DNA from: a virus
Reading direction: 5' to 3' (one strand)
Virus record (IMG/VR): IMGVR_UViG_3300023179_000180
Span: 1 to 45,287 of that record
Length of the DNA stretch: 45,287 bases
Shown: positions 2 through 17,647 of the stretch, piece by piece
Layout of the letters: every line of letters begins with the position of its first letter
Position numbering within the stretch: the stretch's first letter is position 1
Notes under the pieces: generated by a model
Told to the model about the DNA's origin: nothing
The model's database searches: none
Seen by the model: only the letters and a program-made list of their open reading frames with translations
Made by a program: the position numbers and the translations under genes

Positions 2-2545
2 ACTAAAACACGTCAAGCAGTTAGGGATAATAATAAAGAACAATTTTTTCATTTAATTCCTGATGTTAGTGAGGAAGAAAAACAACAAATATGGGATTTA
101 GTTTCTCCTGTTGTTAAAGAAGAAAAAGTAACAGAAGTAGGCGAGGCAAATCTTAAACCATATAAATGGAAAGAAATAAGACGTAATAGCGATTGGTGGA
201 CTGTTGCTGGATTTACAACAGATAGTGAAACTCAATATGTTATAAATTTAAAAACTACAACTTATATAGATGATGATTTAAATAATTACAAAGCTTTAGA
301 CATTGACTTTACCGCTAAACCTAAAGATAAACGTGGTAAACCATCATATAAAATAGTAGTTAATAAAGGCGAACTTTATAAAGTAATGTCTACTATAACC
401 GATATAATTAAACATTACGTAGAAAAATCTAAAGCTCAAGCTATAACATATTCACCATCAAAAAAATCAAGTGAGGAGGATTTTGGTACTCAAAGAGATA
501 ATTTATACAAAGCATTTATTTCTAAAGCAATACCAGACATAAAATTTGAAAAAAATAAAGAATCAATAGTAGCCATTTTACCTAATACTCAAATAAATGA
601 AGTAGGAGAGGCAAATCTTAAACCATACAAATGGAAAGAGGTTGATGCAGATGGTTATTGGGTTTATACTCGTTTTGTAACAGATAGTGAAACTGAATAC
701 GATGTAGATTTAAAATCAACTAATTATATTGATGATAACTTAAAAAATTTAAGAACTATAGAAGTTGAATTTTCGGCAAAACTTAAAGATGATTGGGGTC
801 CATCAGCTAAAATAGTAGTTAATAAAGGCGAACTTTATAGAGTAATGGCTACAGTTGCTGATATAGTTAAAAAATATATTAAAAAATCTAAAGCTCAAGC
901 TATTATTTATTCTCCATCTAAAAAATCAAATGAAGAAAATTTTGGAGTCCAAAGAGATAATTTATATAAAGCCTTTATTTCTAAAGCATTCCCTGGAGCT
1001 AAATTTGAAAAAATCGGAAACTTAATATTAGCTACATTACCTGATACCATTAATGAATTAGTAACAGATACAGAAATTATTTGTGATAATTGTGGTTGGG
1101 AATGGCCTATAGCAGATGGTGGAGATGATTTATACATCTGCCATAAATGTGGACACGATAATAATCCTGATTTAGAAGAAGGTAGAAAAAAGAAATCTGA
1201 CCCTAAAAAAGGAACAGGTAAAAAACCTGAAGGATCATCTCGTAGATTATACACAGATGAAGATCCAAAAGACACTGTTCGAATTAAATTTAAAACAAAA
1301 GAAGATATTGTTGATACTTTAAATAAAACATCTTTTAAAGCAAAATCACATGTTCGTCAATCCCAAGTAATTAACTTAATTCACCAACGAGTAAGAGCCG
1401 CTTACGGTAAAGCAAAAGATCCTGAAGTAAAATCAAGACTAAAACGTGCTTTAGATTATATCGAATCTCGTAAAGAATCATCAAAGGAAAAAACAGAACG
1501 TTTACGTAAAATGAAAGAAGCATCTGACCCACAAGCAGGAACAGCTTTACCTTATGGTTCAGGATTTGCCCCAGTTAAAGAAAATGACCCGTTTGGATTA
1601 AATGAATTGGCAAGACAATTTCTTAAAGAAGCTTTGATAGAAACTTGGAATCCCGAGGAATCTTTCGTATCTTTATCTCGATATATGATTGACAATGGAA
1701 TGAATATCAAACCATTGCCTAAAATTAAGGTTATAAAGGATGATGAACAAAACGCATCCAATCTTTTGGGTAAAACAGCTTACTATAATCCTGTTGAAAA
1801 ATCTATCACATTATACACAATGGATAGACACCCAAAAGATGTTTTACGTTCATTTGCTCATGAAATGATTCATCACGAACAGAATTTAGAAGGTAGATTA
1901 AATAATATTAATACTACTAACACAAATGAGGATGGTGATTTACCTGAGATTGAAAAAGAAGCATACGAGAAAGGAAATATGATGTTACGTAATTGGGAGG
2001 ATAAAATAAAAAATCCATTAAATGAATATTTTTTAGATATTCCTAAATTTAATTACCCAAAAACATTTGTAGATAAGTTACGTGAATCTCTCCATGAAAT
2101 TACTTTATCAAAAAACAATGCAGCTGAAATAGAAGGTGATTTATATAAGGGTATGTTCCGAGCAGGAAATAAAGTATACACTTATGATATCTACAGAATA
2201 AAAAGCCCATATAATGACAATAAAGAATTTTATAATGTAGAATTTCATCCTAAAAATAATCCTATTTCTACCCCTACAGGTGATACAACTAAAGAAGATT
2301 ATATAAAAATTTTAAATACAATGTATAAAATTATATTAGATCTTGCTGAAACTGACGAACCTGATTATATTGGTATAGCTTCAATGGATAATATAGGAGA
2401 TAAAAACTATCATACAATATATGCTAATTTAACAGACAACAAATATAATAGAATACCTGGGTATTTTAGAAAAGATGTTAATCTTGAATTTAATACCCCT
2501 CAAGGTAAAGGTCGATTTGTAGTATTAAAAAGAAAAGATGTATAA
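2..2545 (+). CDS. Large modular phage protein, 5'-truncated; duplicated domain, zinc ribbon and HExxH metallopeptidase-like region
   Basis: The frame is open from base 2, so the ATG at 386 is internal (it lies in VMSTITD) and the true start is outside the window. Visible order: a unique segment; a domain of about 150 residues present twice (from 137 and from 602); a four-cysteine zinc ribbon, CxxC...CxxC, at 1082-1150; a Lys/Arg-rich segment with GTGKKPEGSSRRLYTDE; a short helix, ELARQFLKEALIE, near 1610-1645; and a metallopeptidase-like segment with FAHEMIHHEQN, whose HExxH motif is at 1859-1873. About 135 C-terminal residues are of unknown fold. The duplicated domain resembles one I associate with marine T4-like virion proteins. 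HExxH suggests zinc-dependent proteolysis, but a third ligand was not identified. The stop overlaps the next start by 8 bases. A packaged, host-directed protein is an inference; I cannot name the family. Confidence 0.75.
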   Translation, partial: TKTRQAVRDNNKEQFFHLIPDVSEEEKQQIWDLVSPVVKEEKVTEVGEANLKPYKWKEIRRNSDWWTVAGFTTDSETQYVINLKTTTYIDDDLNNYKALDIDFTAKPKDKRGKPSYKIVVNKGELYKVMSTITDIIKHYVEKSKAQAITYSPSKKSSEEDFGTQRDNLYKAFISKAIPDIKFEKNKESIVAILPNTQINEVGEANLKPYKWKEVDADGYWVYTRFVTDSETEYDVDLKSTNYIDDNLKNLRTIEVEFSAKLKDDWGPSAKIVVNKGELYRVMATVADIVKKYIKKSKAQAIIYSPSKKSNEENFGVQRDNLYKAFISKAFPGAKFEKIGNLILATLPDTINELVTDTEIICDNCGWEWPIADGGDDLYICHKCGHDNNPDLEEGRKKKSDPKKGTGKKPEGSSRRLYTDEDPKDTVRIKFKTKEDIVDTLNKTSFKAKSHVRQSQVINLIHQRVRAAYGKAKDPEVKSRLKRALDYIESRKESSKEKTERLRKMKEASDPQAGTALPYGSGFAPVKENDPFGLNELARQFLKEALIETWNPEESFVSLSRYMIDNGMNIKPLPKIKVIKDDEQNASNLLGKTAYYNPVEKSITLYTMDRHPKDVLRSFAHEMIHHEQNLEGRLNNINTTNTNEDGDLPEIEKEAYEKGNMMLRNWEDKIKNPLNEYFLDIPKFNYPKTFVDKLRESLHEITLSKNNAAEIEGDLYKGMFRAGNKVYTYDIYRIKSPYNDNKEFYNVEFHPKNNPISTPTGDTTKEDYIKILNTMYKIILDLAETDEPDYIGIASMDNIGDKNYHTIYANLTDNKYNRIPGYFRKDVNLEFNTPQGKGRFVVLKRKDV
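137..1055 (+). repeat. Tandem intragenic duplication, two copies, period about 460 bases
   Basis: Copy 1 begins with codons for VGEANLKPYKWKE at 137 and copy 2 with the same residues at 602. Both continue with TDSET.Y, YIDD.L, KIVVNKGELY, KSKAQAI.YSPSKKS and QRDNLYKAFISKA. The offset is 465 bases at the start and 459 in the middle, so two codons differ by indel. The proteins are near-identical in motifs while the codons have drifted. This is an in-frame domain duplication, older than a recent assembly artefact would be. Confidence 0.9.
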
Positions 2546-3083
2546 GTTAACAGATTTATATAAGCAATTAAAAGAAGAAGAAGCAGTTCCTGCTGAACCT
2601 TTCCATCACTATGAGTTATATTGTGATATGGATGGTGTTTTAACTGATTTTGATAAACGTTTTAAATCACTTAATCCTGAACATTTAACAGCAGCTCAAT
2701 ACCAAGCTAAAAATGGTGTAGAAAAATTTTGGGATTTTATTGATGTTGATAACAAAATTAAGTTTTGGGTAGGAATGGAATGGATGCCTGATGGAAAGGA
2801 ATTATGGGACTATATTAAAGATAAACAACCAACTTTATTATCAGCCCCATCAAGAAATCCAGCTTCTCGTTTAGGAAAAAGGTTATGGGTTAAAAATAAT
2901 ATACCTGGAACTAAACTAATTTTAGCATCAGCTGAGAAAAAACAGAATTATTCTGGTACAGATAAAATACTTATCGATGACCGCCCTGACAACATTGAAC
3001 AATGGAGAGCAAGAGGTGGTAAAGGAATTTTACACGTAAACGCACAAGACACAATTAATCAATTACAAAACTTAGGACTATAA
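2538..3083 (+). CDS. HAD-superfamily 5'(3')-deoxyribonucleotidase-like phosphatase
   Basis: A 181-residue protein of the haloacid dehalogenase superfamily. Motif I is CDMDGVLTDFD, with nucleophile D30 and general acid D32. A Ser-containing motif II lies in TLLSAPS, the lysine motif is in RLGKRLWVKNN, and motif IV is LIDDRPDNIEQW. The arrangement is that of phage and bacterial 5' nucleotidases, which dephosphorylate (deoxy)nucleoside monophosphates, so a role in nucleotide salvage or pool control is likely. It starts inside the end of the previous gene (8-base overlap, ATGTATAA). The N-terminal helix MYKLTDLYKQLKEEEA precedes the catalytic domain and resembles the leader helices of its neighbours, so it could be a packaging signal rather than part of the enzyme. 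Substrate is not decided by sequence. Confidence 0.85.
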   Translation: MYKLTDLYKQLKEEEAVPAEPFHHYELYCDMDGVLTDFDKRFKSLNPEHLTAAQYQAKNGVEKFWDFIDVDNKIKFWVGMEWMPDGKELWDYIKDKQPTLLSAPSRNPASRLGKRLWVKNNIPGTKLILASAEKKQNYSGTDKILIDDRPDNIEQWRARGGKGILHVNAQDTINQLQNLGL

Positions 3084-3085
3084 AA

Positions 3086-3877
3086 ATGGCAGCACCAATA
3101 ACATACAAACGACTTGTTTTATCTGGAGATAATGCAAAAGCAACAGCCGATGAGGTTAAAGCAAAAATGGCTAAAGATTGGAAAAGAGATTTTCCTGACG
3201 GTAAATTAGACATTAAAACTGGACTGGAAGGTAAAATGGTGATTGATGTTACTACTAAAGATACATCAGCTGCTTCTTTAGCATCTAAAATTAAAGATGT
3301 TGCCTCTCGTAATAAAGTAACTGTTGTTACTAAAGACAAACCTACACTAAAGGCAGTTAAAGAAAACGATACTAAAAAACCTGCTATATCAGATGAAGAG
3401 TTGATGAAGAGAATTAAATCATCTTTATCAAATCAAGTATCAGGAGGTAAAAAAGGTAAACCTGGATTACAGGAAGGACCTATAGACAAACGTGTAGCTA
3501 TTGTATTTTTAAAATACAAAGGCAAATCATTTCCAATGGACTATAAGCCAGATTCTACGTTTGCTAGATTTACAAACGATTTAGAAAAAACTGGTGCTTT
3601 TATGGATGAAGATGCTGTTGCCGATTTCATGTCAAGTGATGATTTTAACTATTATGCAAAATCATTTGGTGTTGAAATTGAAGATGCAATAGACAACGAT
3701 ATGTTATCTATAGCTCCTAAAAAACAAATGGAACCACAAGATATGATTCCTGGTAGGGCTCAAGGTGATGTTAATCCTAATGCTCCTCATAGGTCAACAG
3801 ATATTTATGAGTTAATGAAAAAAGGCAAAATGAAAAAATCTGAGCTAAAAGAAATCATCAAAAAATTCAGTAAGTAA
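3086..3877 (+). CDS. Conserved phage protein, unknown function
   Basis: A 263-residue soluble, lysine-rich protein without a family I recognise. Residues 1-90 look like a small alpha/beta domain (LVLSGDNAKATADEVKAKM, then alternating strands). A Lys-rich linker containing KPGLQEGP leads to a second acidic alpha/beta domain, and the C terminus is a basic helix, MKKSELKEIIKKFSK. That helix is strikingly like the N termini of other genes in this block (for example MKKSELKAEIKEYI at 17191). LQE-G matches the T4 prohead-protease consensus (L/I)-x-E-(A/G/S). The start follows the previous stop by 2 bases, and the stop overlaps the next start as TAATG. Membership of the inferred packaged-protein block is likely but unproven. 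Confidence 0.75.
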   Translation: MAAPITYKRLVLSGDNAKATADEVKAKMAKDWKRDFPDGKLDIKTGLEGKMVIDVTTKDTSAASLASKIKDVASRNKVTVVTKDKPTLKAVKENDTKKPAISDEELMKRIKSSLSNQVSGGKKGKPGLQEGPIDKRVAIVFLKYKGKSFPMDYKPDSTFARFTNDLEKTGAFMDEDAVADFMSSDDFNYYAKSFGVEIEDAIDNDMLSIAPKKQMEPQDMIPGRAQGDVNPNAPHRSTDIYELMKKGKMKKSELKEIIKKFSK

Positions 3878-4449
3878 TGAGCAACGATTCGGTTTTAAAA
3901 AAAGAGTTCAAGCATAATGACGTGCAGCGTCTCCGTAACCTTGTTCAAGGCAAGTATGGGGACAAAACCACTATGGGGACTGGTTATGAAAAAGCAAAGG
4001 AATTTCATGCCGAGGGAGATATTTGGGAAGAAGATGGTCGTCAATGGACTATTAAAAACGGATTAAAACAAAATATTACTAAACTAGATAAGGCAAAAGA
4101 AGGTATTGTATTACCTATTTTTTGCCCTAAATGTTCAAAAGCAACCAAACAACATTTGGATAAAAAATGGTTTGTAATGTATGGTCATTGCTTCAATTGC
4201 CAGGTAGACCATGAACATCAATTAAGAAAAGAAGGTAAATTAGATGCCTTTGAAAAAAATATTATCAACCAACACTTAGAAGGAGTAACTAAAGATTTTG
4301 AGGTTTGGTTTGATGAATTAATTAATACCAATAATACATTTGTAACGGAACAAGGTGATGTTGAAAAATGGGATGGTGATGGTAAAAATCAGTTGTTAAA
4401 GTATAAAGAGGAAGCACTAGAGTATCTTAAAAAACAGAAAAAAGAATGA
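3877..4449 (+). CDS. Phage zinc-ribbon protein
   Basis: A 190-residue protein with a clear four-cysteine zinc-binding pair: FCPKCSKATKQH, then GHCFNCQVDHEHQ, around residues 83-112. Upstream is a conserved-looking stretch with GDIWEEDGRQWTIKNG, and the C terminus is acidic and helical. The ribbon could bind nucleic acid or protein, or simply stabilise the fold. Its codons are less AT-rich at the 5' end than those of its neighbours. The start overlaps the upstream stop (TAATG) and the stop overlaps the next start (ATGA), so it is translationally coupled on both sides. I recognise the type from T4-like phages but know no function for it. Confidence 0.75.
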   Translation: MSNDSVLKKEFKHNDVQRLRNLVQGKYGDKTTMGTGYEKAKEFHAEGDIWEEDGRQWTIKNGLKQNITKLDKAKEGIVLPIFCPKCSKATKQHLDKKWFVMYGHCFNCQVDHEHQLRKEGKLDAFEKNIINQHLEGVTKDFEVWFDELINTNNTFVTEQGDVEKWDGDGKNQLLKYKEEALEYLKKQKKE

Positions 4450-5063
4450 CAACGTTAGCAATGCTTACAACCATCCTTGTAGCCCTTATTACTGCTGTAA
4501 TAGGACCTTTACTAATGACATGGTTTAAAAATAAATTAGAAAAGGAACCTAAAATATCCTCAGTAAAAGAAGCAATTGATTTAAATGAATTAGTTGACCA
4601 TCAATTAGATATAATGATGGATGAGTTAGACTGTGATAGAATTTGGATTGGACAATTTCATAATGGAGGCCATTTTTATCCTACAGGTAAATCAATCCAG
4701 AAATTCTCTATATTTTACGAAAAATTATCTCCTAATACATCAGGAATACAACATATTTTTCAACAAATCCCTGTCTCATTATTTCCAAAATCATTATCCA
4801 AATTATATAAAGATGGTGAATTAGGTATAACAAGTTATGAAAATGATGAAACTTATGACTTACATTTATTTTCTAAAGAATATAATACAAAATCATTTTA
4901 TATGTTAGCTGTAGATGATCTTGATGATCATTTTATTGGTGTTATGGGAATTGCGTTTAACGAACAAGAACATAAATTATCTAAAGAAGAGTGGATATTT
5001 ATACGACAGAAGGTAGGGGCGATTGGTTCGCTCTTAACTGACTATTTAAGAACTAAAAAATAA
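4446..5063 (+). CDS. Membrane-anchored GAF-like protein
   Basis: A 205-residue protein with one N-terminal transmembrane helix (about residues 4-25, rich in L, I and V), followed by a basic stop-transfer stretch, FKNKLEKEPK. The remainder is a soluble alpha/beta domain containing DRIWIGQFHNGGHF, FSIFYEKLSP, SFYMLAVDDL and IGVMGIAFNE, the order of strands seen in GAF-like sensor domains. The expected topology is a short outside tail with the domain in the cytoplasm. A role at the host membrane during infection is an inference. It overlaps the upstream gene by 4 bases (ATGA) and joins the next gene by TAATG. No catalytic residues are evident. Confidence 0.65.
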   Translation: MTTLAMLTTILVALITAVIGPLLMTWFKNKLEKEPKISSVKEAIDLNELVDHQLDIMMDELDCDRIWIGQFHNGGHFYPTGKSIQKFSIFYEKLSPNTSGIQHIFQQIPVSLFPKSLSKLYKDGELGITSYENDETYDLHLFSKEYNTKSFYMLAVDDLDDHFIGVMGIAFNEQEHKLSKEEWIFIRQKVGAIGSLLTDYLRTKK

Positions 5064-6412
5064 TGAAAGACATTCAAAAAATAAAAGAATTTTTCTCTCA
5101 ACCTATGAAAGAATCATTAACAGGAGGATACCCTCATACAAAAACATCAGGTGAAAATTTTGAAAAAATTACAATTACAGAACCAATAGATGATGCTACT
5201 AAAAATAAAATGATTCAAAATTTTAGAGCAGCAGGTTGGGATGCTAAACCTAATAATGGTGGTGGTATTACTGCTATTAAAAAATCAATAATGGAAGGTA
5301 ATAAAGAATATTTTAAACCATCAATCCGCAAGGACAAATCAAATCCTAACTTTTTATATGTTGACATCACATATCCAGAAGGATCAGACGTTTTATCTGT
5401 TGGTGGATCTAAAACTATGGGTGGTCAAGATAGAGAAGAAGGTGCTGCTAAAGCAATGTCAATGGGTAATGCGATTGTTAAAAAATTACAAGCAAAATAC
5501 AATATTGAGGATATTGAGGTAAAGGATTTAAAAAATGGTAAAGTAGAAGTATTTGCTGTATCAGATGATTTTATTAAAATGGCTTCTCCTTCATTAGATG
5601 AAGCTAAAAAAGAAACAGCGGTTGATATGGCTAAAAAGCAATTAGATGCTTTAGGTGTTAAATATGAACTAGGTAATGAATTTAAACCATTTAAAGTAAT
5701 TTATAAACCAACAGGCCAATCAGATAAATTTTATGATACATTTGAAGATATTGTTGATTTATTTAACTTAAAAGGTGTTGTAAAATCAACAATGAGTGAA
5801 GCTAAAGAAGAAGATAAAGTAGATACCATTACAATGGATATTCCTTTGTTTATTCGTATGTTAGAATATTCAAGAGAAGATGCTGCTGAAGATATGGATC
5901 TACATGATGTTACTGAAAAAGCAATTGCATTAGGTAAAGAAAGAGGTATCTTACAAATGGATGATTATGATGAAATTATAGGTACTACTGAAAAAGTAAA
6001 TGAAGTTAACTTAAAACAAGCTAAATTATCCTCAGCTGAATACCAAAAAGCTAAAAAATTAAAAGATTTTAAATCAAGTGATTGGAAATGGAATGCTGAC
6101 GAGGATTTATATACTAAAGTAACTGAAGCTACTGACTACATGAAACGTAGGAAAGCTGAAGATGATTACGCTACAAAAAAACCTAAACAACCATCTTATA
6201 CAGGTAAAACAGATTACATGAAGCGTAGAGAAAAAGGTTTAGAGGAAAAAATCGATGAAGCATTAAATAAAATTAACGAGGAACTTTGCCCTGCAGGTAA
6301 AGCATACATTAAAAGAAGACAAGCCGCTGGTGAAAAATCATCTGCTTACCTTTCAGGTCGTGGTGTTAAAGTATGTAAAGGTCAAATGTCAGGCAAAGCA
6401 AAGAAAAAATAA
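5063..6412 (+). CDS. Multi-domain phage protein, candidate packaged protein
   Basis: A 449-residue, lysine- and glutamate-rich protein. It begins with the helix MKDIQKIKEFFSQPMKES, like several neighbours. Recognisable blocks are a domain with NFLYVDITYPEGSDVLSVGG; a second domain with KKQLDALGVKYELG; an acidic helical block, LFIRMLEYSREDAAEDMDLHD, which I associate with marine T4-like virion proteins; and two copies of a TDYMKRR(K/E) motif (near 6135 and 6210). The C-terminal tail is basic with two cysteines (ELCPAGKAYIKRR...VKVCKGQ). The C-terminal Cys/Lys tail resembles small nucleic-acid-binding tails, but this is not proof. It is coupled to both neighbours by TAATG. The architecture suggests a fusion of small modules; function unknown. 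Confidence 0.7.
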   Translation: MKDIQKIKEFFSQPMKESLTGGYPHTKTSGENFEKITITEPIDDATKNKMIQNFRAAGWDAKPNNGGGITAIKKSIMEGNKEYFKPSIRKDKSNPNFLYVDITYPEGSDVLSVGGSKTMGGQDREEGAAKAMSMGNAIVKKLQAKYNIEDIEVKDLKNGKVEVFAVSDDFIKMASPSLDEAKKETAVDMAKKQLDALGVKYELGNEFKPFKVIYKPTGQSDKFYDTFEDIVDLFNLKGVVKSTMSEAKEEDKVDTITMDIPLFIRMLEYSREDAAEDMDLHDVTEKAIALGKERGILQMDDYDEIIGTTEKVNEVNLKQAKLSSAEYQKAKKLKDFKSSDWKWNADEDLYTKVTEATDYMKRRKAEDDYATKKPKQPSYTGKTDYMKRREKGLEEKIDEALNKINEELCPAGKAYIKRRQAAGEKSSAYLSGRGVKVCKGQMSGKAKKK

Positions 6413-6702
6413 TGGATATAAATCGTCTACAAGAACTAGTATCTGAATCATTACGTAACTGGTTTAAAAAAGAGGACTGGGTGCGTATTGATACTCAAGG
6501 TAATATTACTGGTCCTTGTGGTTCGATGAAAAAAGGTGGAGCTACAACACGTTGTTTACCTCGTAAAAAAGCTCAATCATTATCTAAAGCCGAAAGAGCA
6601 AAAACCTCTAAGAAAAAAGCTGCTGGTTCTCGCAAGGGAAAACAATTTGTAAAGAATACAGAAAAAGCAGAATATAAAAAAGGCACATATAATAAAAAAT
6701 AA
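6412..6702 (+). CDS. Small basic two-cysteine phage protein
   Basis: A 96-residue protein beginning with the amphipathic helix MDINRLQELVSESLRNWFKKE, then GPCGSMKKGGATTRCLP and a strongly basic tail, SLSKAERAKTSKKKAAGSRK. The PCG...RCLP...SKAERA pattern recurs in small phage proteins of unknown role. The positive charge makes DNA or RNA binding plausible. It starts on the upstream stop (TAATGG) and is followed by an intergenic TATTTAT element before the next gene, so it probably closes a translationally coupled group. VSE-S in the leader helix is a weak match to the prohead-protease site. Confidence 0.7.
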   Translation: MDINRLQELVSESLRNWFKKEDWVRIDTQGNITGPCGSMKKGGATTRCLPRKKAQSLSKAERAKTSKKKAAGSRKGKQFVKNTEKAEYKKGTYNKK

Positions 6703-6704
6703 CA

Positions 6705-6711
6705 TATTTAT
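6705..6711 (+). promoter_or_regulatory. TATTTAT element (variant of the recurring octamer)
   Basis: TATTTATC lies in the 20-base gap before the gene at 6723. It is one base short of the octamer TATTTATA found upstream of at least nine other genes here. Promoter or initiation-enhancing role is inferred from recurrence only. Confidence 0.35.
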
Positions 6712-6722
6712 CAACATATATT

Positions 6723-8204: not shown

Positions 8205-8210
8205 AAGTAT

Positions 8211-10129: not shown

Positions 10130-10131
10130 TT

Positions 10132-11364
10132 ATGGATGCACTAGATTTATTTTTTAAAGAAGTTAATTATAAATTTCCAAAAGGATTTTGTGATACAAAT
10201 GATGCACAAGATATTTTGTTATTAGAAAAATTAATTAAAAATTTAGTTCCTGAATTTAGCTTTGCAATATTAAAGGAAACCTTATTGTTAGAAGTTACAG
10301 ACAAAGAAATTAATAACAACACTAAAAAAGCAATTGAATCTATTGTAAGTAATGCTGAATCTGAATTAGGATTTAAAACACAAAGTGATACAAATCGTTT
10401 AGGTAATCCTAATAAAATAGAGCCTGAAAAAATGACTCAACTTTTTAAAGATTTATTAGGTGTTGAAAACATAACAACTTATGGTCCTAAACAAGGACCT
10501 AATCCTTCAAGTAAATTTACAATGTATGAAATGGATACTGATAAATTTGGTATGGTTAGAATTATTGTAAGTGGAGGAGGAAATGTTGGAGAAAAATATG
10601 AACAGGAATTTGTTGCTAAAGCTAAAGCCAATGCTGGTAAATCAAATGATGAATTACCTAATGATTTAAAAACATTATATAATACTTTAGGTATAGACAA
10701 TAGTAAATTAACAGCTGAAAATATTAAATTTGCAGGTGCTACAGATACTAAAAGAAGTTTATCTTTAGAAGGTCCTCAAGATATAGGTAAAACTATATCA
10801 GACCTGACTATAACTTATGGTGGTAAAGAGTATTATATTTCTTTAAAAAATGTATCCGGTAGTGGAGTTTATAGTGGTCCTAATGTTCCTTTTATTTATG
10901 AAAAGGATGGCAAAGTTATTTATGATGATAGCAAGAAAAACTCAACCCCACCAATAGCTTTATTGTTTGATATTTTTAATATTGATTCTCAAAAGTTAGC
11001 AGATGGGTTAAATGGATATGTAACTAAAGAAGGTACAGAAGATACTTTTTCAAAAGTAAAAATCGATAGTAATAAATTTAAAAAACTATTAGCTTCATCT
11101 TTAGGATATGGTTACTATTATGTTAGAGAAACAAAACCAGGTGAAGTAAAAGTTATACCTTTACTTTCAGCTAAAGACTCTGAAAATGCTATTGGTAATA
11201 TTACTAACACAGAAATTAAATACCCTGGTCCTAATACAAAACAATTAACTATGAAAATAGATACTGAAAGCCCTATATTTGGTAGTTCTCAATACCAGGT
11301 TTCAGTTAGAAATACTGCAGGTAAATTGTTACCTTTATCGTTAAGAGTTAGTAAAACTAAATAA
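10132..11364 (+). CDS. Phage protein with possible nuclease-like core
   Basis: A 410-residue protein, of which residues 1-90 are helical. The centre contains GKTISDLTITYGGKEYYISLKNVSG, split here as SDLTI and YYISLK. An Asp on one strand and S-L-K on the next, after a Gly turn, is the pattern seen in some phage proteins of the PD-(D/E)xK nuclease-like fold, although the usual acidic residue before the lysine is a serine. The C-terminal half is beta-rich. No leader helix with a clear (L/I)xE(A/G) site is visible. A nuclease assignment is only a possibility; a structural protein is equally compatible. The next gene is preceded by TATTTATA right after this stop codon. Confidence 0.6.
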   Translation: MDALDLFFKEVNYKFPKGFCDTNDAQDILLLEKLIKNLVPEFSFAILKETLLLEVTDKEINNNTKKAIESIVSNAESELGFKTQSDTNRLGNPNKIEPEKMTQLFKDLLGVENITTYGPKQGPNPSSKFTMYEMDTDKFGMVRIIVSGGGNVGEKYEQEFVAKAKANAGKSNDELPNDLKTLYNTLGIDNSKLTAENIKFAGATDTKRSLSLEGPQDIGKTISDLTITYGGKEYYISLKNVSGSGVYSGPNVPFIYEKDGKVIYDDSKKNSTPPIALLFDIFNIDSQKLADGLNGYVTKEGTEDTFSKVKIDSNKFKKLLASSLGYGYYYVRETKPGEVKVIPLLSAKDSENAIGNITNTEIKYPGPNTKQLTMKIDTESPIFGSSQYQVSVRNTAGKLLPLSLRVSKTK

Positions 11365-11372
11365 TATTTATA
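11365..11372 (+). promoter_or_regulatory. TATTTATA element
   Basis: This octamer begins immediately after the TAA at 11362-11364 and ends 3 bases before ATG 11376. Such a short distance would give a leaderless transcript if it acts as a -10 element. A translation-enhancing role is the alternative. Confidence 0.45.
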
Positions 11373-11375
11373 ACC

Positions 11376-12449
11376 ATGGATTTAAAAAAATTAATTAGGG
11401 AAGTATTAGAAAACAAGGATTGTTGCACTGCAACAAAACCTACTAAAGCACCTATATTAAACGAAAATCTTCAGTCGCGTGTTTTGATGACTGAAAATAT
11501 GCAATACCATATAGACAATAAAAAACCGCTATATGAAACAACATTACCATATGGTTCTAAAGAATATTTAGATTTATGGGTTGAAGCAAGATACTTGTAT
11601 TCTCGTGGTGCTTTAAACGTTGAAGGTATTGATAAAGAAAAAATTACCGAAACTCATTTAGGTGAATATGGAATATTTGAAGGCCAATTAGTTCCTTTAG
11701 ATATGCCTATGCTTGAAGAAAATTCAATTGAGGAAATAAAATTAACGAGTGCGGGAACTATGGATATGATTCGCCGTGTATTTAAAGACCCTAAACTATT
11801 AAATTTTTTAGATTTTAAATCTTTTAAAGACTTTTTAGCATTTATTAAGGGGGGTTCTTTAAGTGATTATGATGAAGTTAAAAGTGATATTCAACAATAC
11901 GATCAACAACTTGCTGAAGGTATATTAACAGAAGATAACATCGCTGAATTAGAAAAAATTAAAAAAGAAGTTGAAGCTTTAATGCCAAGTCTTAGTTGGA
12001 TAGATGATGTTACTGTTTCTAATTATAGTGGTGATCTAGATATTGAATTAGATTATAAATTAGATCCTCAAGAAATTAAACAATTATCTCAACTTGCTTC
12101 TAAGTATAATATGGATTTAATATACAAAACAGGTAAAAATGCTACATTAACAAAACGTAGAGTTCCACCAAAATATGAGGAATTAAACGAAGCCGAATAC
12201 CAAGGACGTAAAGTTCAATTAGGTAAACCAATGCAAGGTGATAGTAAAAAGTTTAAAGTATATGTTAAAAACGATAAAGGTAAGGTTGTAAAAGTTAACT
12301 TTGGATTTGGTGGTAAATCAGCTAAAGGTAAGCGAATGGTAATTAAAGCCAAAAACCCAAAAAGACGTGCCGCCTATAGAGCAAGACACCATTGTGACAA
12401 TCCAGGACCACGTTGGAAAGCAAATTATTGGTCTTGTAAAAAATGGTAA
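11376..12449 (+). CDS. Virion-type protein with C-terminal CDNPGP...YWSCKKW domain
   Basis: A 357-residue protein. The leader helix MDLKKLIREVLENKDCC is followed by ILNEN. Further (L/I)xE sites occur internally, notably ELNEAEYQG near residue 275. The C-terminal approximately 85 residues (KVQLGKPMQGDSKKFKVYV...KVNFGFGG...NPKRRAAYRARHHCDNPGP...YWSCKKW) form a basic module that I know as a recurring C terminus of marine T4-like phage proteins. The conserved Cys pair, His residues and basic patch could bind metal or nucleic acid. TATTTATA precedes the gene, and the next gene starts one base after the stop. Role unknown; packaged or head-associated protein inferred. Confidence 0.7.
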   Translation: MDLKKLIREVLENKDCCTATKPTKAPILNENLQSRVLMTENMQYHIDNKKPLYETTLPYGSKEYLDLWVEARYLYSRGALNVEGIDKEKITETHLGEYGIFEGQLVPLDMPMLEENSIEEIKLTSAGTMDMIRRVFKDPKLLNFLDFKSFKDFLAFIKGGSLSDYDEVKSDIQQYDQQLAEGILTEDNIAELEKIKKEVEALMPSLSWIDDVTVSNYSGDLDIELDYKLDPQEIKQLSQLASKYNMDLIYKTGKNATLTKRRVPPKYEELNEAEYQGRKVQLGKPMQGDSKKFKVYVKNDKGKVVKVNFGFGGKSAKGKRMVIKAKNPKRRAAYRARHHCDNPGPRWKANYWSCKKW

Positions 12450-12450
12450 T

Positions 12451-12864
12451 ATGATTAACTTACTTGACATATTAAGCGAAGCAGAGGTATCAAAATGTCC
12501 TGCCCCTACTCAAAACATTGAATTAAACCTTCAAAACAGACAGAAGGCAATTAATGAATATGGATACGGTCCATTGAATCCTAATGAACCTAATGATAAG
12601 TTCTGGCAGGCTAAAGTTGATATGTGGAAGCTTGATTCTGTAGAAGAAGCAAAGAAATCACGTTGTGGTAATTGTGCTGCTTTTGATCAAACTACTAAAA
12701 CATTAGATTGTATTGCTAAAGGAATTGGTAACGATGAAGGTAGTGAAGATCCTTTTGATGTTATTAAAGCTGGTGATTTAGGTTATTGCAGATTTTTAAA
12801 GTTCAAATGTGCGGCTGCTAGAACTTGTGATGCTTGGGTTGTTGGTGGTCCTCTAACTGATTAG
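12451..12864 (+). CDS. Cysteine-rich phage protein
   Basis: The start chosen is ATG 12451, one base after the upstream stop, giving 137 residues. A longer frame to 12367 lies wholly inside the previous gene and is unlikely. The protein opens with MINLLDILSEAEVSK, which contains L-S-E-A, a near-ideal prohead-protease site at residues 8-11. The body ends with a cysteine-rich domain: RCGNCAAFDQ, LDCIAKGIG, then GYCRFLKFKCAAARTCDAWVVGGP. The CxxC...C...YC pattern resembles small metal-binding domains and loosely the high-potential iron-sulfur fold, but I cannot decide between zinc, Fe-S or disulfides. A small packaged protein is the favoured inference. Confidence 0.7.
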   Translation: MINLLDILSEAEVSKCPAPTQNIELNLQNRQKAINEYGYGPLNPNEPNDKFWQAKVDMWKLDSVEEAKKSRCGNCAAFDQTTKTLDCIAKGIGNDEGSEDPFDVIKAGDLGYCRFLKFKCAAARTCDAWVVGGPLTD

Positions 12865-12873
12865 AAAATAATA

Positions 12874-12881
12874 TATTTATA
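12874..12881 (+). promoter_or_regulatory. TATTTATA element
   Basis: This octamer lies in the 21-base gap before ATG 12886, 4 bases from the ATG. It sits in an AT palindrome (12873-12887) that reaches the start codon. Confidence 0.45.
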
Positions 12882-12885
12882 AAAT

Positions 12886-13521
12886 ATGGATAACTTTAAC
12901 TTAAGAGCATACTTACAAAGCCAAATACTATTTGAGGCCGAAGGTGCTGATGAGGCAGAATTAGATCTTTTAGATAAAGAAATTGAATCGGCTTTTGCCT
13001 CTAGTTTAGGTGCTTTACAAGGTCAAGTAGCAGAAGTTAAAGGTCAAGTTGATGAAGCCGAAACAGATTTAAATGAGGCTGTTGTCTCACTTTTAGTTTC
13101 ATTATTATTGTCTGCTCCTAAATTATTAGAAATTATTGGGGGTATGGTTAAAAAAATTGCTACTAAATTTTCTAAAGAAAAAGGCAAAGTAGCAGCCGGA
13201 GATGGTTTTATTCATGCTGGTCATCACTTAGAGCAAAAATATTTAGGATTACTTAAAAAAGTAATTAAAGTAACAGGTATTGCTAAAAAAGCAAACCTAA
13301 AATCAGAGGCCGAAATAGATAAAGCAGCAAAAGTAATGCTTTACACTGTTTTAGGAGCAGCCGCTGTATCCGCTGGTTTTGCTTCAGTTGAAGCTATTGG
13401 TGGTGCTTTAGCAGGTAAAGGTGTAAGTGCTGCCGTTTACGGTGCTGCTAAAGGAGGTTTAGCTCATCTAAAAGGAACAGAAGTTGTTGATGGAGTTAAA
13501 AAATTAATAGCAAAAATATAA
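12886..13521 (+). CDS. Hydrophobic phage protein, candidate membrane-active packaged protein
   Basis: A 211-residue protein. The leader MDNFNLRAYLQSQILFEAEG contains L-F-E-A (residues 15-18), a strong prohead-protease match. After an acidic helical region come a hydrophobic helix, AVVSLLVSLLLSAPKLLEI (about residues 65-83), and an Ala/Gly-rich hydrophobic segment, VLGAAAVSAGFASVEAIGG (about 155-173). The first is similar in style to the LVSLITILIASLLLNP segment of the gene at 6723. The combination of a cleavable leader and membrane-seeking segments would suit a protein ejected with the DNA to permeabilise or bridge the inner membrane. That role is an inference; a prohead component is the alternative. 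Confidence 0.68.
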   Translation: MDNFNLRAYLQSQILFEAEGADEAELDLLDKEIESAFASSLGALQGQVAEVKGQVDEAETDLNEAVVSLLVSLLLSAPKLLEIIGGMVKKIATKFSKEKGKVAAGDGFIHAGHHLEQKYLGLLKKVIKVTGIAKKANLKSEAEIDKAAKVMLYTVLGAAAVSAGFASVEAIGGALAGKGVSAAVYGAAKGGLAHLKGTEVVDGVKKLIAKI

Positions 13522-13531
13522 ATAAAAACGG

Positions 13532-14260
13532 ATGGCATCTATTTTTATAACCGGAGTAGGACAATCCCTAACATCATCTTTTGATACGTTTTGGGATGCT
13601 AAAACTATAGCTAATAACTATGGTTACGGTTATTTAGGATCATACCCTCCAGCATCACCAAATGTTAATTATACTTTAGATTCAGGAAGTGGTGCAAATA
13701 CTACTTCTAAACCTTTACAAATGTATACTCCTTACCCTACATCAACAGTAAGGGGTAAATTATATTTTTTAACAGGTACTAACTTTGCATCTGATTATGC
13801 TGCTTTAAATACAGCAGGATTAAATCCAAATTTATTTACAGAAATTCAAATCCCATCAACAGGTCAATATTATGTTATTACACCTTCTTTAGAAAGTGCT
13901 GTAGGGTCAACTCAACAGTATGTAGTACAATATGCTTTTACTGATGAGGATGATTTATATAATAATGCTTGGAGGATTCAAGCCCATGGTAGTACTACAG
14001 ATCCAATAACAACCCAAGCTAATTGGATAGCATTAACTGTAGGAGGAGGATGGACTTTAGCCCCTTATAATTTAAATTTATCTACTACTGGTGATAAAGC
14101 AAAAATTGTAGCCTCAATTTTAGGATATACTCCAAAAAGTATTACTTTGCAAGCATCAATTAACCCAAAAGTAAAAGGAGCAATGGTAGTTGCGGGTGCT
14201 GGAACTCCTTTTGACAACATATCATATAATAATATTGTTCCTTTAGTTTATAAAACTTAA
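13532..14260 (+). CDS. Beta-rich virion-type protein, unknown
   Basis: A 242-residue protein rich in Thr, Ser, Tyr, Asn and Gly, starting MASIFITGVGQSLTSSFDTFWD. There are no membrane segments and no leader helix. The composition (TGTNF, YYVITPSL, WTLAPYNLNL) is typical of phage tail, fibre or decoration proteins. It is the last gene before a terminator at 14321-14356, so it closes the long left-hand transcription unit. I do not recognise a family and offer only a structural role. Confidence 0.6.
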   Translation: MASIFITGVGQSLTSSFDTFWDAKTIANNYGYGYLGSYPPASPNVNYTLDSGSGANTTSKPLQMYTPYPTSTVRGKLYFLTGTNFASDYAALNTAGLNPNLFTEIQIPSTGQYYVITPSLESAVGSTQQYVVQYAFTDEDDLYNNAWRIQAHGSTTDPITTQANWIALTVGGGWTLAPYNLNLSTTGDKAKIVASILGYTPKSITLQASINPKVKGAMVVAGAGTPFDNISYNNIVPLVYKT

Positions 14261-14320
14261 TAGGAATAAATTTATAGACGGATTCATAGCCCGTTGCTAA
14301 ACCTTAAAAAAATGACAGCT

Positions 14321-14356
14321 GTGGCGTCACCAAATTTGGAGATGTCACTTTTTTTT
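14321..14356 (+). terminator. Rho-independent terminator
   Basis: Stem GTGGCGTCACC (14321-14331) pairs with GGAGATGTCAC (14338-14348) through 10 pairs including two G-U and one mismatch. The loop is AAATTT, followed by eight T. It ends the left-hand gene block before the FAD oxidoreductase gene. Confidence 0.8.
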
Positions 14357-14365
14357 ATTATATTA
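14356..14365 (+). promoter_or_regulatory. TATTATATTA element
   Basis: This 10-mer immediately follows the terminator and lies 13 bases before ATG 14379. The identical 10-mer precedes the genes at 15783 and 44672. A candidate promoter core for accessory genes; inferred. Confidence 0.45.
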
Positions 14366-14378
14366 ACGTGTTAAACAT

Positions 14379-15746
14379 ATGAACAAGAAAATTGTAATTG
14401 TAGGATCAGGTGTAGCAGGTGTAAATGCTGCCACCAAATTAGTAGACAATGGTTACGATGGTAAATTAATTACCATTATTGATATGGGTAAAGACCCTTA
14501 CAACAGAAAACCTGAGGAAGTAATGACAGGTTTCCTAGGTGCTGGAGGTTGGTCTGATGGCAAATTGACTTACCATACAGCTATTGGAGGTCAATTATCT
14601 AAATATACAGGTGAAAAGAAAGCAATGGCTTTAATGGATGAAGTTATTACTAACTTTAAACGTTTCCATCCTAAACCAGAGGAAGTACAATGTTCAAATC
14701 CAATTGAAGAACCAAATTTTATTAAACCATATTTTGGTTTAAGATTATTTCCTGTTTGGCACGTAGGTACAGATTATTTATCTGAAATTGCTAAAAATTG
14801 GTATGATTATTTAGTATCTAAAGGTGTTAATTTCCATTGGGAAGCTAAAGTAACATCTATTGTATTTGATAAAAATTTAGTATTTGTTAAAGAATTAAAT
14901 CAATATGTTATTGATAAACAAGGATTTCCTGATTTTGAAATATCTTATGATGAACTTATTTTTGCTGTAGGTAAATCAGGTATTGATTTTGCTCAACAAA
15001 TACAAGATGATTATAAATTAGAAACTGAACCTAAATCAGTACAAATTGGAGTTAGATTTGAAGCACCACAACATCACTTCCAGAAACTAATTGATATTAG
15101 TTACGATTTTAAATTGTATCGTAAGTTTGATACAGGTGTTTCATTACGTTCATTTTGTACAAATAATAATGCCGCTTACGTTGCTGTAGAGGAAACATAT
15201 GGTGATGTTACTTACAATGGTCATGCTAAAAAAGATCCTAAATACCTAAACGGAATGACTAATTTTGGTATTATTATGGAAATTAAGGACATTGAAGATC
15301 CATTTGCTTGGTCTCGTAAAGTAGTAAATAAATTACAATCAAATGGTACTGGATTATATTATTCACCATCCAGAACTTCATCAACAACATCAGAAGGTGA
15401 AAAAGTTAGCTCAATCCAAATTGATAGTTTAGATATAGTAAGACGGGGAATGGGTAAATATTGGAATTACATAGAGGATTTTATTGAGGATATGAAGAAA
15501 GTATTTCCAACACTTAAAGATGATTGGGGTGTTTATGTTCCTGAAGTAAAATATTTGTCACCTGAACCATTAGTTTATCCTAAAGATTTAGCATTAGTTG
15601 ATTTTCCAAATGTTCACTTTGTAGGAGATGCCTTATCAGCTAGAGGAATTACAGTTTCAGGAGCACAAGGTATTTTAGCTGTAGAAAAATTTGTAACCGA
15701 AGATGAATGGGATAACATTCATGGGGATATGACTTATTGGAAATAA
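14379..15746 (+). CDS. FAD-dependent dehydrogenase-like oxidoreductase
   Basis: A 455-residue flavoprotein. An N-terminal Rossmann fold has IVIVGSGVAGVNAA (G9-x-G11-x-x-G14). A C-terminal FAD-contact motif, HFVGDALSARGITVSGAQG, is followed by a helix, ILAVEKF. The overall layout resembles uncharacterised FAD-dependent dehydrogenases (the COG2509 type) rather than thioredoxin reductase: no redox CxxC is seen and the middle is a long substrate domain. It is presumably cytoplasmic; the substrate is unknown. The gene stands between a terminator and its own TATTATATTA element, so it is an independently expressed accessory metabolic gene, not part of the virion operon. Confidence 0.8.
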   Translation: MNKKIVIVGSGVAGVNAATKLVDNGYDGKLITIIDMGKDPYNRKPEEVMTGFLGAGGWSDGKLTYHTAIGGQLSKYTGEKKAMALMDEVITNFKRFHPKPEEVQCSNPIEEPNFIKPYFGLRLFPVWHVGTDYLSEIAKNWYDYLVSKGVNFHWEAKVTSIVFDKNLVFVKELNQYVIDKQGFPDFEISYDELIFAVGKSGIDFAQQIQDDYKLETEPKSVQIGVRFEAPQHHFQKLIDISYDFKLYRKFDTGVSLRSFCTNNNAAYVAVEETYGDVTYNGHAKKDPKYLNGMTNFGIIMEIKDIEDPFAWSRKVVNKLQSNGTGLYYSPSRTSSTTSEGEKVSSIQIDSLDIVRRGMGKYWNYIEDFIEDMKKVFPTLKDDWGVYVPEVKYLSPEPLVYPKDLALVDFPNVHFVGDALSARGITVSGAQGILAVEKFVTEDEWDNIHGDMTYWK

Positions 15747-15767
15747 TTAGGAAAATTAAAGAATTTT

Positions 15768-15777
15768 TATTATATTA
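15768..15777 (+). promoter_or_regulatory. TATTATATTA element
   Basis: Identical to the 10-mers at 14356 and 44657. It lies 5 bases before ATG 15783, in a 36-base gap after the oxidoreductase stop. Confidence 0.45.
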
Positions 15778-15782
15778 CAATT

Positions 15783-16031
15783 ATGAAAACTAAATACGAA
15801 CCAAGTAGAAAATTAACCAAAGATGATGGCACTATTGCCTATGTTTGGGAAAATAAACTACACAATTGGGAAGGTCCAGCATACATTCCACAAGGTGATA
15901 ATCGTAAACGTGAATATCATCTCCATGGTATTCCATATACAGAAGATGGTTGGAAAGAAGCTCGTCGTAACCGTGAAGGGTTACCATGGTTTAAAACCAA
16001 TTTAGGCCAAGCAGGTCAAAACAGACATTAA
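15783..16031 (+). CDS. Small phage protein with LHNxEGPA-type repeat motif
   Basis: An 82-residue protein. VWENKLHNWEGPAYIP followed by REYHLHGIPYTEDGW has the rhythm of the short repeats (NGxxHxxxGPA...YxxxGxxx) seen in many phage and bacterial proteins related to MORN-like sequences. Here there are one to two copies only. Function unknown. It has its own upstream TATTATATTA element and is followed by a hairpin before the HNH gene. Confidence 0.6.
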   Translation: MKTKYEPSRKLTKDDGTIAYVWENKLHNWEGPAYIPQGDNRKREYHLHGIPYTEDGWKEARRNREGLPWFKTNLGQAGQNRH

Positions 16032-16039
16032 AAGAAAAA

Positions 16040-16068
16040 GGATTTCCCTTAATTTTTCAAGGAAGTCC
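16040..16068 (+). promoter_or_regulatory. Hairpin upstream of the HNH endonuclease gene
   Basis: GGATTTCCCTT (16040-16050) pairs with AAGGAAGTCC (16059-16068), with one bulged C and one G-U. There is no T-run afterwards, so it is not a classic terminator. It ends 15 bases before ATG 16084. Hairpins upstream of free-standing homing endonuclease genes in T4 limit their expression; a similar role here is inferred. Confidence 0.45.
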
Positions 16069-16083
16069 TAATATGTATAATGG

Positions 16084-16644
16084 ATGAAAAAATGTGCTAA
16101 ATGTAATATAAACTATGATTTAAATCAATTTCCAAAAGATTGTTCTAAAAAAGATGGACATAAGTCTTATTGTTTTCCTTGTAATAGACAAGTAGTAACT
16201 AAATCTACTTTAAAACGAAAAGATAAAAGACATATTGAAAACATAAATAACAGGGAAACTATTAGTGAATATAATAAAAGTTATTATAATAAAAATAAAA
16301 ATGTATTTCAAGAAAATTATAAAAGATATTTACAAACAAATCCATCTTTTAAAGTAATACATAATACTAGAGTAAGAATAAATAAAGCCTTAAAATTAAA
16401 TCTAAAATATTCTTCGACTGAGGAATTATTAGGATGTTCTTTAAACGAATATAAACAATATTTAGAAAAACAATTTACTCCAGAAATGAGTTGGGATAAT
16501 TATGGTTCTTATTGGGATATAGATCATATAATTCCTTGTGCTTCTTTTAATTTAGATAGCTTGGAAGCACAAAAGAAATGTTTTATATTTACAAATACAA
16601 GACCGTTGTCTAAAATAGAAAATCAAAGAAAAAATAAATATTAA
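16084..16644 (+). CDS. HNH homing endonuclease (free-standing)
   Basis: A 186-residue protein. A zinc-binding pair CAKC (C4, C7) and CFPC (C30, C33) lies at the N terminus. The HNH core is YWDIDHIIPCASF (D147-H148), then N171 in TNTRPLS and N180 in IENQRK. The segment LEKQFTPEMSWDNYG just before it is typical of phage HNH enzymes. It makes a site-specific nick or double-strand break that promotes spread of its own gene. It sits between a small accessory gene and a kinase-like gene, with a hairpin upstream and only 4 bases downstream, consistent with insertion into an existing gene string. No intron boundaries are visible. Confidence 0.88.
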   Translation: MKKCAKCNINYDLNQFPKDCSKKDGHKSYCFPCNRQVVTKSTLKRKDKRHIENINNRETISEYNKSYYNKNKNVFQENYKRYLQTNPSFKVIHNTRVRINKALKLNLKYSSTEELLGCSLNEYKQYLEKQFTPEMSWDNYGSYWDIDHIIPCASFNLDSLEAQKKCFIFTNTRPLSKIENQRKNKY

Positions 16645-16648
16645 TAAT

Positions 16649-17179
16649 ATGAAGATAGGTTTATGTGGAACAATGAGTGTAGGTAAAACTACATTAGTAA
16701 ATGCTTTAATGAATTTACCTGAGTTTGAAGGGTATAATTTTGCTACTGAGCGTTCTAAGTATTTACGTGATTTAGGTATTCCATTGAATACTGATTCTAC
16801 ATTAAAAGGTCAGTTTGTATTTTTAGCTGAACGTTGTGCTGAATTAATGGGTGAAAATCTTATTACAGATCGTACAGTTATTGATGTAATGGCGTTTACT
16901 AAAGCAGCTAAATCAATTGATTATTATGATGCTGAGGCGTTTTGTGATGCTGCTTATAAGTTAATTCCAGAATATGATTACATATTTTATGTATCGCCTG
17001 TTGGAGTTGAAATGGAGGATAATGGAGTTAGAGAAACTGATTTAAAATATAGAGAAACTATTGATAGTATTATTAAATTAATATTATATAGGAGTAATCA
17101 TAAAATTAAACATTTTACTGAGTTATCAGGTACAACTGAGGAACGTATTGCAAAAATGACAGAGACAATTTTTGGTTAA
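16649..17179 (+). CDS. P-loop NTPase / nucleotide kinase-like (AAA_28/NadR type)
   Basis: A 176-residue protein. A Walker A motif, GTMSVGKTT, lies at residues 7-15. NFATERSKYLRDLGIPL follows, and NLITDRTVIDVMAF looks like a Walker-B-like segment with a catalytic Asp. Later, DYIFYVSPVGVEMEDNGVRETD resembles the lid region of NadR/AAA_28-type kinases. It likely phosphorylates a nucleoside, nucleotide or nicotinamide compound; the substrate cannot be read from the sequence. The next gene begins 11 bases after its stop, with TATTTATA between them. Confidence 0.8.
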   Translation: MKIGLCGTMSVGKTTLVNALMNLPEFEGYNFATERSKYLRDLGIPLNTDSTLKGQFVFLAERCAELMGENLITDRTVIDVMAFTKAAKSIDYYDAEAFCDAAYKLIPEYDYIFYVSPVGVEMEDNGVRETDLKYRETIDSIIKLILYRSNHKIKHFTELSGTTEERIAKMTETIFG

Positions 17180-17187
17180 TATTTATA
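17180..17187 (+). promoter_or_regulatory. TATTTATA element
   Basis: This octamer overlaps the end of the kinase gene's stop region and lies 3 bases before ATG 17191. It marks a switch from accessory genes back to virion-type genes. Confidence 0.45.
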
Positions 17188-17190
17188 ATC

Positions 17191-17646
17191 ATGAAAAAAT
17201 CTGAATTAAAAGCAGAAATTAAAGAATACATTGTAGAAATTTTATCTGAAATAGATGAAGCGACTTATGTTGGAGCAGGAGCTGTAGCAGATATGCAAAA
17301 GGATCCTAATTTTTCTAAAGTAAAAGACAAACCAGCAGCAATTAATACCCTAAAACAAGGTGAAAGCGTTACTTTAGAGGAAGAAGATGAAGATAGAGAA
17401 CCTACCAAAGCAGAATTAGAAAAGGAAAAAGTTAAAACCGTTTCTAAGTTTAAAATTCCTAACGACCAATTTGAAGACTTTAAATCTAAACTTAAAACTT
17501 TAGTTACTAAAGTAAAAGGTATGGAAAAGGGAGTTGAAAAAGATAAAAAGATGGCTGCCCTAAAACAATTTATTCACAAACCAGAATTAGTTAAAGCGTT
17601 TAAAGAAAGAGACGTCAAAATTGATACTGGTGATTTAATCGGATAA
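17191..17646 (+). CDS. Small charged phage protein, candidate packaged protein
   Basis: A 151-residue protein, very rich in Lys, Glu and Asp. The leader MKKSELKAEIKEYIVEILSEIDEA has two candidate protease sites (L-S-E-I and I-D-E-A) and is almost the same as the C-terminal helix of the gene at 3086. The rest (FKIPNDQFEDFKSKLKTLV, KKMAALKQFIHKPELVKAF) looks helical. No family is known. The leader, size and charge fit an internal head protein; this is an inference. Confidence 0.62.
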   Translation: MKKSELKAEIKEYIVEILSEIDEATYVGAGAVADMQKDPNFSKVKDKPAAINTLKQGESVTLEEEDEDREPTKAELEKEKVKTVSKFKIPNDQFEDFKSKLKTLVTKVKGMEKGVEKDKKMAALKQFIHKPELVKAFKERDVKIDTGDLIG

Positions 17647-17647
17647 T

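Follow-up and report, generated by a model that had tools for sequence, protein, structure and literature searches.

A modular set of putative cleavable capsid-targeting leaders upstream of the terminase gene in a probable Far-T4 phage

The closest described system is that of phage T4, in which four scattered genes encode tagged internal proteins (IPI, IPII, IPIII and Alt) that carry a short N-terminal capsid-targeting sequence (CTS) ending in L/I-x-E and are processed by the protease gp21. As described in PMC9026906, the T4 tag comprises 10 residues, with targeting depending on residues 4 and 7 and processing on residues 8 and 10. The ejection proteins of SPN3US and phiKZ-type giant phages are similar in that a prohead protease removes propeptides of head proteins by cleavage behind x-x-E, although these propeptides are mostly longer than 100 residues and end in S/A-x-E or A-x-E (PMC5694885, PMC9026906). 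Here we describe a virus record from IMG/VR (IMGVR_UViG_3300023179_000180; 45,287 bases, the whole of which is referred to as the window) in which about ten genes gathered in one block, the island upstream of the terminase large subunit (TerL) gene, start with candidate leaders of only 9-24 residues that end in [LIV]-x-E. As in T4, a gp21 homologue is encoded beside the scaffold and the major capsid protein (MCP), and one leader type of the window group has the same 10-residue geometry. Unlike T4, the group has several unrelated leader types that move from one cargo to another, and one tag is common to the C-terminus of the scaffold.

The window leaders and the TerL, protease, scaffold and MCP features given below lie on the + strand. 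The window encodes TerL (18186-19784; phrog_2, E value 6e-51), for which no leader role is claimed, followed by the portal protein (19814), a gp21-like protease (24553), the scaffold (25363) and MCP (26617). In an MCP search, identity to isolates was 54% for Flavobacterium phage immuto (immuto 2-6A, recorded host Flavobacterium sp. LMO8), 48% for Microcystis phage Mel-JY01 and 35% for Rhodothermus phage RM378, which was the best isolate match after the other two (E 2e-82, 96% covered) and is the reference Far-T4 phage (PMC4360716). The window derives from a T4-like myovirus, on this ranking most likely one of the Far-T4 group. The words prohead, protease, internal, leader and gp22 are absent from the main text of that genome paper, and among the papers found to contain "capsid targeting sequence", in a search that covered few subscription papers, none has a title on Far-T4, Bacteroidetes or uncultured phages. 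Our literature search likewise returned no Mel-JY01 paper and, among papers with immuto-like terms, none with a title on the immuto virion. Close relatives are common in IMG/VR, with at least 80 records matched in each of two scans, and the island region was compared in seven genomes (the window, immuto and five long IMG/VR records).

A preliminary description, made from the letters of the window alone, had proposed a packaged set of T4-like internal proteins spread over the whole block. This reading is supported by motif enrichment, T4 geometry, the repeat in further records, leader exchange and a scaffold-shared peptide, all of which, like the protease homology, are observed directly at the sequence level, and it shrinks from the whole block to about ten tagged proteins. 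With a short N-terminal leader ending in L/I-x-E and a gp21-family protease in the same genome, the set is most aptly seen as a variation on the internal proteins of T4, larger and modular, in which leaders are exchangeable and one tag also occurs in the scaffold. Taken as a whole, it is probable that the leaders target the capsid in the manner of T4 and are cleaved by the gp21-like protease, the cargo then most likely being ejected. Leader-driven packaging with cleavage appears probable when considered by itself, and ejection of the cargo into the host is slightly favoured. Packaging, cleavage, ejection and any effect in the host are inferred; what the sequences support is the signature and its most likely meaning.

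The preliminary description had suggested comparing N-terminal motif frequency with that in shuffled sequences, and this comparison revealed an excess upstream of TerL. The strict motif was defined as [LI]xE[AGS] within the first 40 residues; we drew the island borders ourselves, and open reading frames (ORFs) were taken from the first ATG, so that some starts will be wrong. Across the seven genomes, the motif occurred in 40 of 139 island genes against a shuffled mean of 10.5 (standard deviation (sd) 3.0, largest 19) and in 26 of 61 genes from TerL to MCP against 5.0 (sd 1.9), compared to 64 of 851 other genes, where shuffles gave 52.4 (sd 6.6). Within the island, the excess lay in the first 30 residues and faded further on, and the profile of the other genes was flat. 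To reduce redundancy, the proteins of 164 sources (117 with TerL) were clustered into families, which gave 31.6 of 108 upstream of TerL against 9.4 in shuffles (sd 3.1, largest 18), 29.1 of 344 downstream against 24.0 (sd 4.7), which is at chance, and 17.9 of 152 further away against 12.7 (sd 3.3). When redundancy was kept, internal segments combining a leader with a site were somewhat above chance, numbering 9 upstream (1.8 in shuffles), 12 among head genes (2.2) and 6 downstream (2.2); one of them is a fusion junction in immuto.

The leaders fall into several types, one of which (type III) follows T4 geometry. Using a pattern written from IPIII (M..[FYWLIMV]..[FYLIMV][LI].E), we found that 9.7 of the 108 families upstream had a match, where shuffles gave 0.24 (largest 2 in 300 shuffles), with further matches in 2.4 of 31 head families against 0.04, in 3.1 of 344 downstream families against 0.77 (largest 6) and in 4.5 of 152 far families against 0.38 (largest 4); one member is window gene 12451, with MINLLDILSE/A (a slash marks the predicted cut). 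In T4 itself the pattern matched 4 of 246 ORFs, namely IPII, IPIII, gp24 and one unrelated protein, of which gp24 is the sole independent recovery, because the pattern came from IPIII and the first ten residues of IPII are identical. It missed the seven other listed T4 head proteins (gp67, gp68, gp21, gp22, gp23, Alt and IPI), while a looser motif placed a site within the first 65 residues of 8 out of 10 T4 proteins (these seven with IPII, IPIII and gp24). Among the 108 families upstream, 6.9 had type I (strict form MKKSELKxxIK), where shuffles gave 0.02, compared to 0.0 of 344 downstream families. Type II (MxNFDLKKFL) was present in 11.1 of 108 upstream against 0.35, 3.0 of 344 downstream against 0.83 and 4.0 of 152 far families against 0.30. 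Both of these patterns were written after the leaders had been seen in that same set. We additionally re-applied the leader rules to G001 (268,739 bases) and to 41.6 kb of the 484-kb uncultured phage LR756508, the type IV pattern having been slightly widened beforehand; the single type IV leader listed fits the narrower form too. G001 is closely related (TerL 88%), and 20.6 kb of its sequence (L141), holding 2 of its 17 matches, had been in the earlier set. The rules matched 17 of 361 genes in G001 against 1.85 (sd 1.42, largest 7), with nine matches in the 20.5 kb before TerL, seven elsewhere and one in TerL itself, which is likely a false positive. In the distant LR756508 (MCP 47%, TerL 27%), they matched 9 of 52 genes against 0.22 (sd 0.49, largest 3); eight of the nine were type I, and seven of these eight fell between 1.4 and 10.8 kb of that stretch, on either side of the protease gene (4.5-6.3 kb) or near it.

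Comparison of cargo families shows that the leaders are exchangeable, with similarity resuming past the predicted cut. Such exchange lends indirect support to the idea that a leader alone may be enough for entry into the head. A cargo-only profile for the gene at 12886, built without its distant members, found homologues in immuto (E 6e-10), Mel-JY01 (7e-22), L098 (6e-7) and G005 (2e-11), the next non-member scoring 0.002. Four or more leader types precede this cargo: MKKSELVKLIKE (type I) in immuto, M.NFN (type II) in the window and L074, LQKLAGIISE or MQLLAGVITE (type IV) in L008 and L098, and MKDLKIIQEFFSKPIYE (type V) in G005. The type V leader of the G005 protein is in turn found on the unrelated window gene 5063. 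The 12451 cargo occurs with two leaders, MINLLDILSE/A and MNNFDLKKYLAENKLFE/A, which stop a few residues short of a conserved block resembling CPxPTQ; all six sequences align at L-x-E despite a 7-residue gap in the leader. Similarly, the proteins L098|13 (type IV, predicted cut after residue 22) and immuto 103806 (type II, after 24) become similar from residues 32 and 31, and a nucleotidylyltransferase has a leader of 15 residues in G004, whereas the G005 protein starts directly with the core. Finally, the 9677 unit is a separate gene in the window and is fused, helix included, inside an 841-residue protein in immuto.

The protease at 24553-25158 was recognized in the preliminary description as gp21-like, and homology searches agree (phrog_207, E 2e-56; T4 gp21 structure 5jbl, E 3e-17). 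All 87 aligned sequences, that of T4 among them, retain the presumed catalytic His and Ser. The gene between gp21 and MCP occupies the position of gp22, is acidic and contains several protease sites, which marks its product as a prohead core scaffold; the window protein has no PHROG family match. Its N-terminal nine residues (LLKE/A, 25363-25389) resemble T4 gp22, where LIAE/A likewise falls at residue 9, and L-x-E/A is found near the N-terminus of 60 of 70 scaffolds, with LKQ/A in some of the others. Its C-terminal tail, VNDQFSRWQTLAGIKK behind PILE/V (26527-26574), matches the type IV leaders of relatives. The scaffolds end in [DN]QFxRWQKLAGIKK or similar, and an I/L-x-E site precedes this tail in 70 of 70; the residue behind the site is V, A, S, I or M, most commonly V. 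A profile trained on 37 distinct tails and run on 2,781 other proteins, with 79 scaffolds excluded, gave 14 matches above the best shuffled score of 10.8, comprising nine N-terminal leaders (15.0 to 34.6), one internal match and four C-terminal tails belonging to scaffold-like head genes missed by the first filter; the weak ends of G005|113 (7.3) and L048|0 (4.2) fell below that score and were not counted. Since the peptide xRxQKLAGI is common to both, the scaffold and the type IV cargos probably dock at one place. No window gene has a type IV leader, and the link between leader and scaffold therefore runs, for the window, through its scaffold and the 12886 cargo family. At the scaffold-position ends of other phages we found RIKRLAGL in RM378, RMKKLAGIVK in Mel-JY01 and other short segments in T4 and three cyanophages. 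MCP (26617-28374) has a presumed propeptide of 60 residues ending in LVTE/S (26617-26796), whose Glu is shared by 48 of the 49 sequences in the alignment, all but that of T4; homology to the T4 site is not claimed, as alignment of T4 gp23 did not place the T4 cut there. The (L/I)-x-E-(A/G) rule put forward in the preliminary description needs widening to other residues at P1' (most commonly V at the scaffold tail) and to V at P3, as in MCP.

Two observations on the head modules of relatives stand apart from the leaders. The gp21-like protease of LR756508 (L206, 4529-6253) lies in a frame of about 574 residues whose match is broken into two stretches, as though interrupted by an insert. In addition, G001 (L218) carries a close head module at 25-35 kb and a second, divergent one at 228247-237947 (TerL 28%, portal 35%, protease 41% and MCP 42% to the window), which would mean either two phages joined in assembly or one phage with two modules.

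We propose a mechanism in which about ten genes upstream of TerL encode unrelated cargos, each with an N-terminal leader of 9-24 residues that would dock it, while the head is being assembled and before DNA entry, to the core or the inner shell of the prohead. The gp21-like protease would then cut after [LIV]-x-E and release the cargo in the maturing head. In relatives, at least one leader type equals the scaffold-end peptide xRxQKLAGI, and the binding site would probably be common to scaffold and cargo. The freed cargo, including the nucleotidase and, in relatives, a Zeta-toxin-like kinase, would most likely leave with the DNA into the next host. More broadly, we hold it an even call that Far-T4 packaging is open, with a small set of leader cassettes that can replace one another, by which diverse late proteins may be loaded, cut free and injected; one cassette would have been taken from the docking tail of the scaffold or given to it. 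If true, the sequences of the leaders would by themselves reveal which proteins abundant uncultured phages inject, nucleotide enzymes and a Zeta-toxin-like kinase among them; an N-terminal tag would predict the injected proteins of widespread aquatic phages and turn many unknown genes into testable early-infection effectors; and the docking signal common to scaffold and cargo would provide a natural tag set for loading phage heads.

Several results weigh against the internal-protein reading. In the window alone the strict motif was found in 5 of 20 island genes against a shuffled mean of 1.33 (largest 5 in 200 shuffles), a marginal excess that is suggestive only, and half of the genes in the block have no leader. 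Tagged families do not uniformly have the site (45% of 89 members in one, 10% of 10 in another), and the head families (6.5 of 31 against 2.6) stay below the largest shuffle (8). Far genes exceed chance for types II and III (4.0 and 4.5 of 152 against 0.30 and 0.38), so that the tag also occurs outside the island, and of the nine scaffold-like leaders two lie upstream of TerL, two beside the L098 scaffold, five elsewhere and none in the window. Interior cleavage sites of island proteins are at chance level, with 164 interior [LI]xE[AGS] motifs against 171 in shuffles (sd 13) among 552 distinct proteins; a polyprotein reading with many internal cuts was rejected on this count. The strict site is missing from the last 50 residues of 72 of 87 proteases, and self-cleavage at the protease C-terminus is consequently not claimed.

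Among other explanations, the most serious is that the tagged proteins are mainly additional parts of the prohead core or scaffold, like T4 gp67, gp68 and gp22, which shape the head and are degraded or retained rather than acting as effectors. Similar N-terminal sites on the scaffold and on the gene before the protease, recurrence of the scaffold tail in cargo leaders and the effect of T4 IPIII itself on head morphogenesis (PMC9026906) would all fit, but the cargos include enzyme-like proteins (deoxyribonucleotidase, Zeta-toxin-like kinase and nucleotidylyltransferase) and their content differs among relatives, unlike that of a structural core, and we therefore regard this explanation as possible but rather unlikely. 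Another explanation is that the leaders are real but mostly uncut, targeting proteins to the core and remaining there, with the strict site relevant for some only. The 9677 protein and its family do retain the helix without a site, and 45% of the 89 members of the 17191 family have the strict one, whereas L-x-E is invariant in the aligned 12451 family. This explanation, which we judge doubtful, is further weakened because V, I and M may be allowed at P1', as at the scaffold tail, so that the strict count understates the sites. Improbable to an even greater degree is that the helices direct proteins to another late structure (tail, baseplate or membrane) or to general assembly, [LI]xE being a by-product of K/L/E-rich helices. 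A similar K/L/E helix starts baseplate-region genes (G003 165189, G006 64132) and some tagged genes are distant from head genes, but the excess is absent in composition-matched shuffles and in downstream genes of the same genomes, the peptide and its adjoining site are common to the scaffold, and the T4 internal-protein genes likewise lie apart from the T4 head genes.

Within the window, a leader was assigned to about ten of the 20 genes in 2538-18185, fewer than the "many neighbouring genes" first reported for the block. The genes at 3086, 3877, 4446, 10132, 13532, 14379 (an oxidoreductase), 15783, 16084, 16649 (a P-loop protein) and 17648 (with a hydrophobic N-terminus) have no leader-like N-terminus. 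All five sites originally quoted were located: SLNE/G at E23 of gene 6723, ITE/A at E24 of 8382, LSE/A at E10 of 12451, LFE/A at E17 of 12886 and IDE/A at E23 of 17191. Four further genes had been described as having leader-like helices without a clean site; the helices were confirmed, and the lack of a site holds for 9677, while 11376 has LIRE/V and the orthologues of 5063 and 6412 are clean.

The first leader, of 13 residues (MYKLTDLYKQLKE/E, 2538-2576), precedes the deoxyribonucleotidase encoded at 2538-3083, where the NT5C profile begins at residue 28 and the G004 orthologue has IKE/A. Gene 5063-6412 has the 17-residue type V leader (PMKE/S, 5063-5113), with PLNE/G in its G004 orthologue, and the basic protein of gene 6412-6702 has 12 residues (LVSE/S, 6412-6447), with LISE/S in G003. 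The 23-residue type II leader of gene 6723-8204 (6723-6791) has its site in 5/5 family members, and tblastn of this product found no match among annotated phages; the 24-residue leader of gene 8382-9677 (8382-8453) has a strict site in about 10% of 10 members. A type I helix (9677-9718) starts gene 9677-10129, with a clean site in about 7% of 14 family members, and the window sequence of gene 11376-12449 gives a nine-residue type I leader (11376-11402). The Cys-rich protein of gene 12451-12864 bears the 10-residue leader of CTS geometry (12451-12480), assigned from the geometry pattern and the family alignment; its start is an internal ATG of the mechanically called ORF 12367, directly past the stop of the preceding gene. 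Cargo-family comparisons define the 17-residue type II leader (12886-12936) of gene 12886-13521, which encodes a helical protein with hydrophobic stretches, and gene 17191-17646 has a 23-residue type I leader ending in LSEIDE/A (17191-17259). Outside the island, gene 23628-24551, which precedes the protease in the place of T4 gp68, starts with 13 residues and the site LIKE/G (23628-23666).

Predicted structures of the 12451 and 12886 cargos had mean predicted local distance difference test (pLDDT) scores of 44 and 51, too low for a fold search, and PDB matches to the nucleotidase were short repeats of designed proteins and were ignored. The relatives G004 (E 2e-16) and G003 (1e-15) encode a Zeta-toxin-like kinase behind MIGLISLLKE or MISLVQLLEE. 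A natural guess, by analogy with T4 Alt and IPI (PMC9026906), is that the cargos may act in early takeover or in defence against host immunity. The short-leader Zeta-toxin-like P-loop kinase lies next to the nucleotidase region in L187 (14757-15581) and L179 (9175-9978). At 386-2545, the window encodes a 719-residue protein with a DUF6934 match, a CxxC...CxxC stretch and an HExxH-like HEMIHH; a comparable FSHEMIHH occurs in an immuto protein that weakly matches Peptidase_M91.

Finally, we observed that the element TATTTATA lies on the coding strand no more than 30 nt upstream of start codons, for example at 11363-11373, 17178-17188, 23613-23623 and 30119-30129 of the window. It precedes 8 of 40 genes in the window (0.3 expected), 22 of 161 in G004 (1.4) and 21 of 213 in immuto (1.2), and AATATTTATAA occurs 4 times in the window against 0.25. 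The element is the reverse complement of TATAAATA, the T4 late promoter, and is possibly a late promoter or an initiation element.

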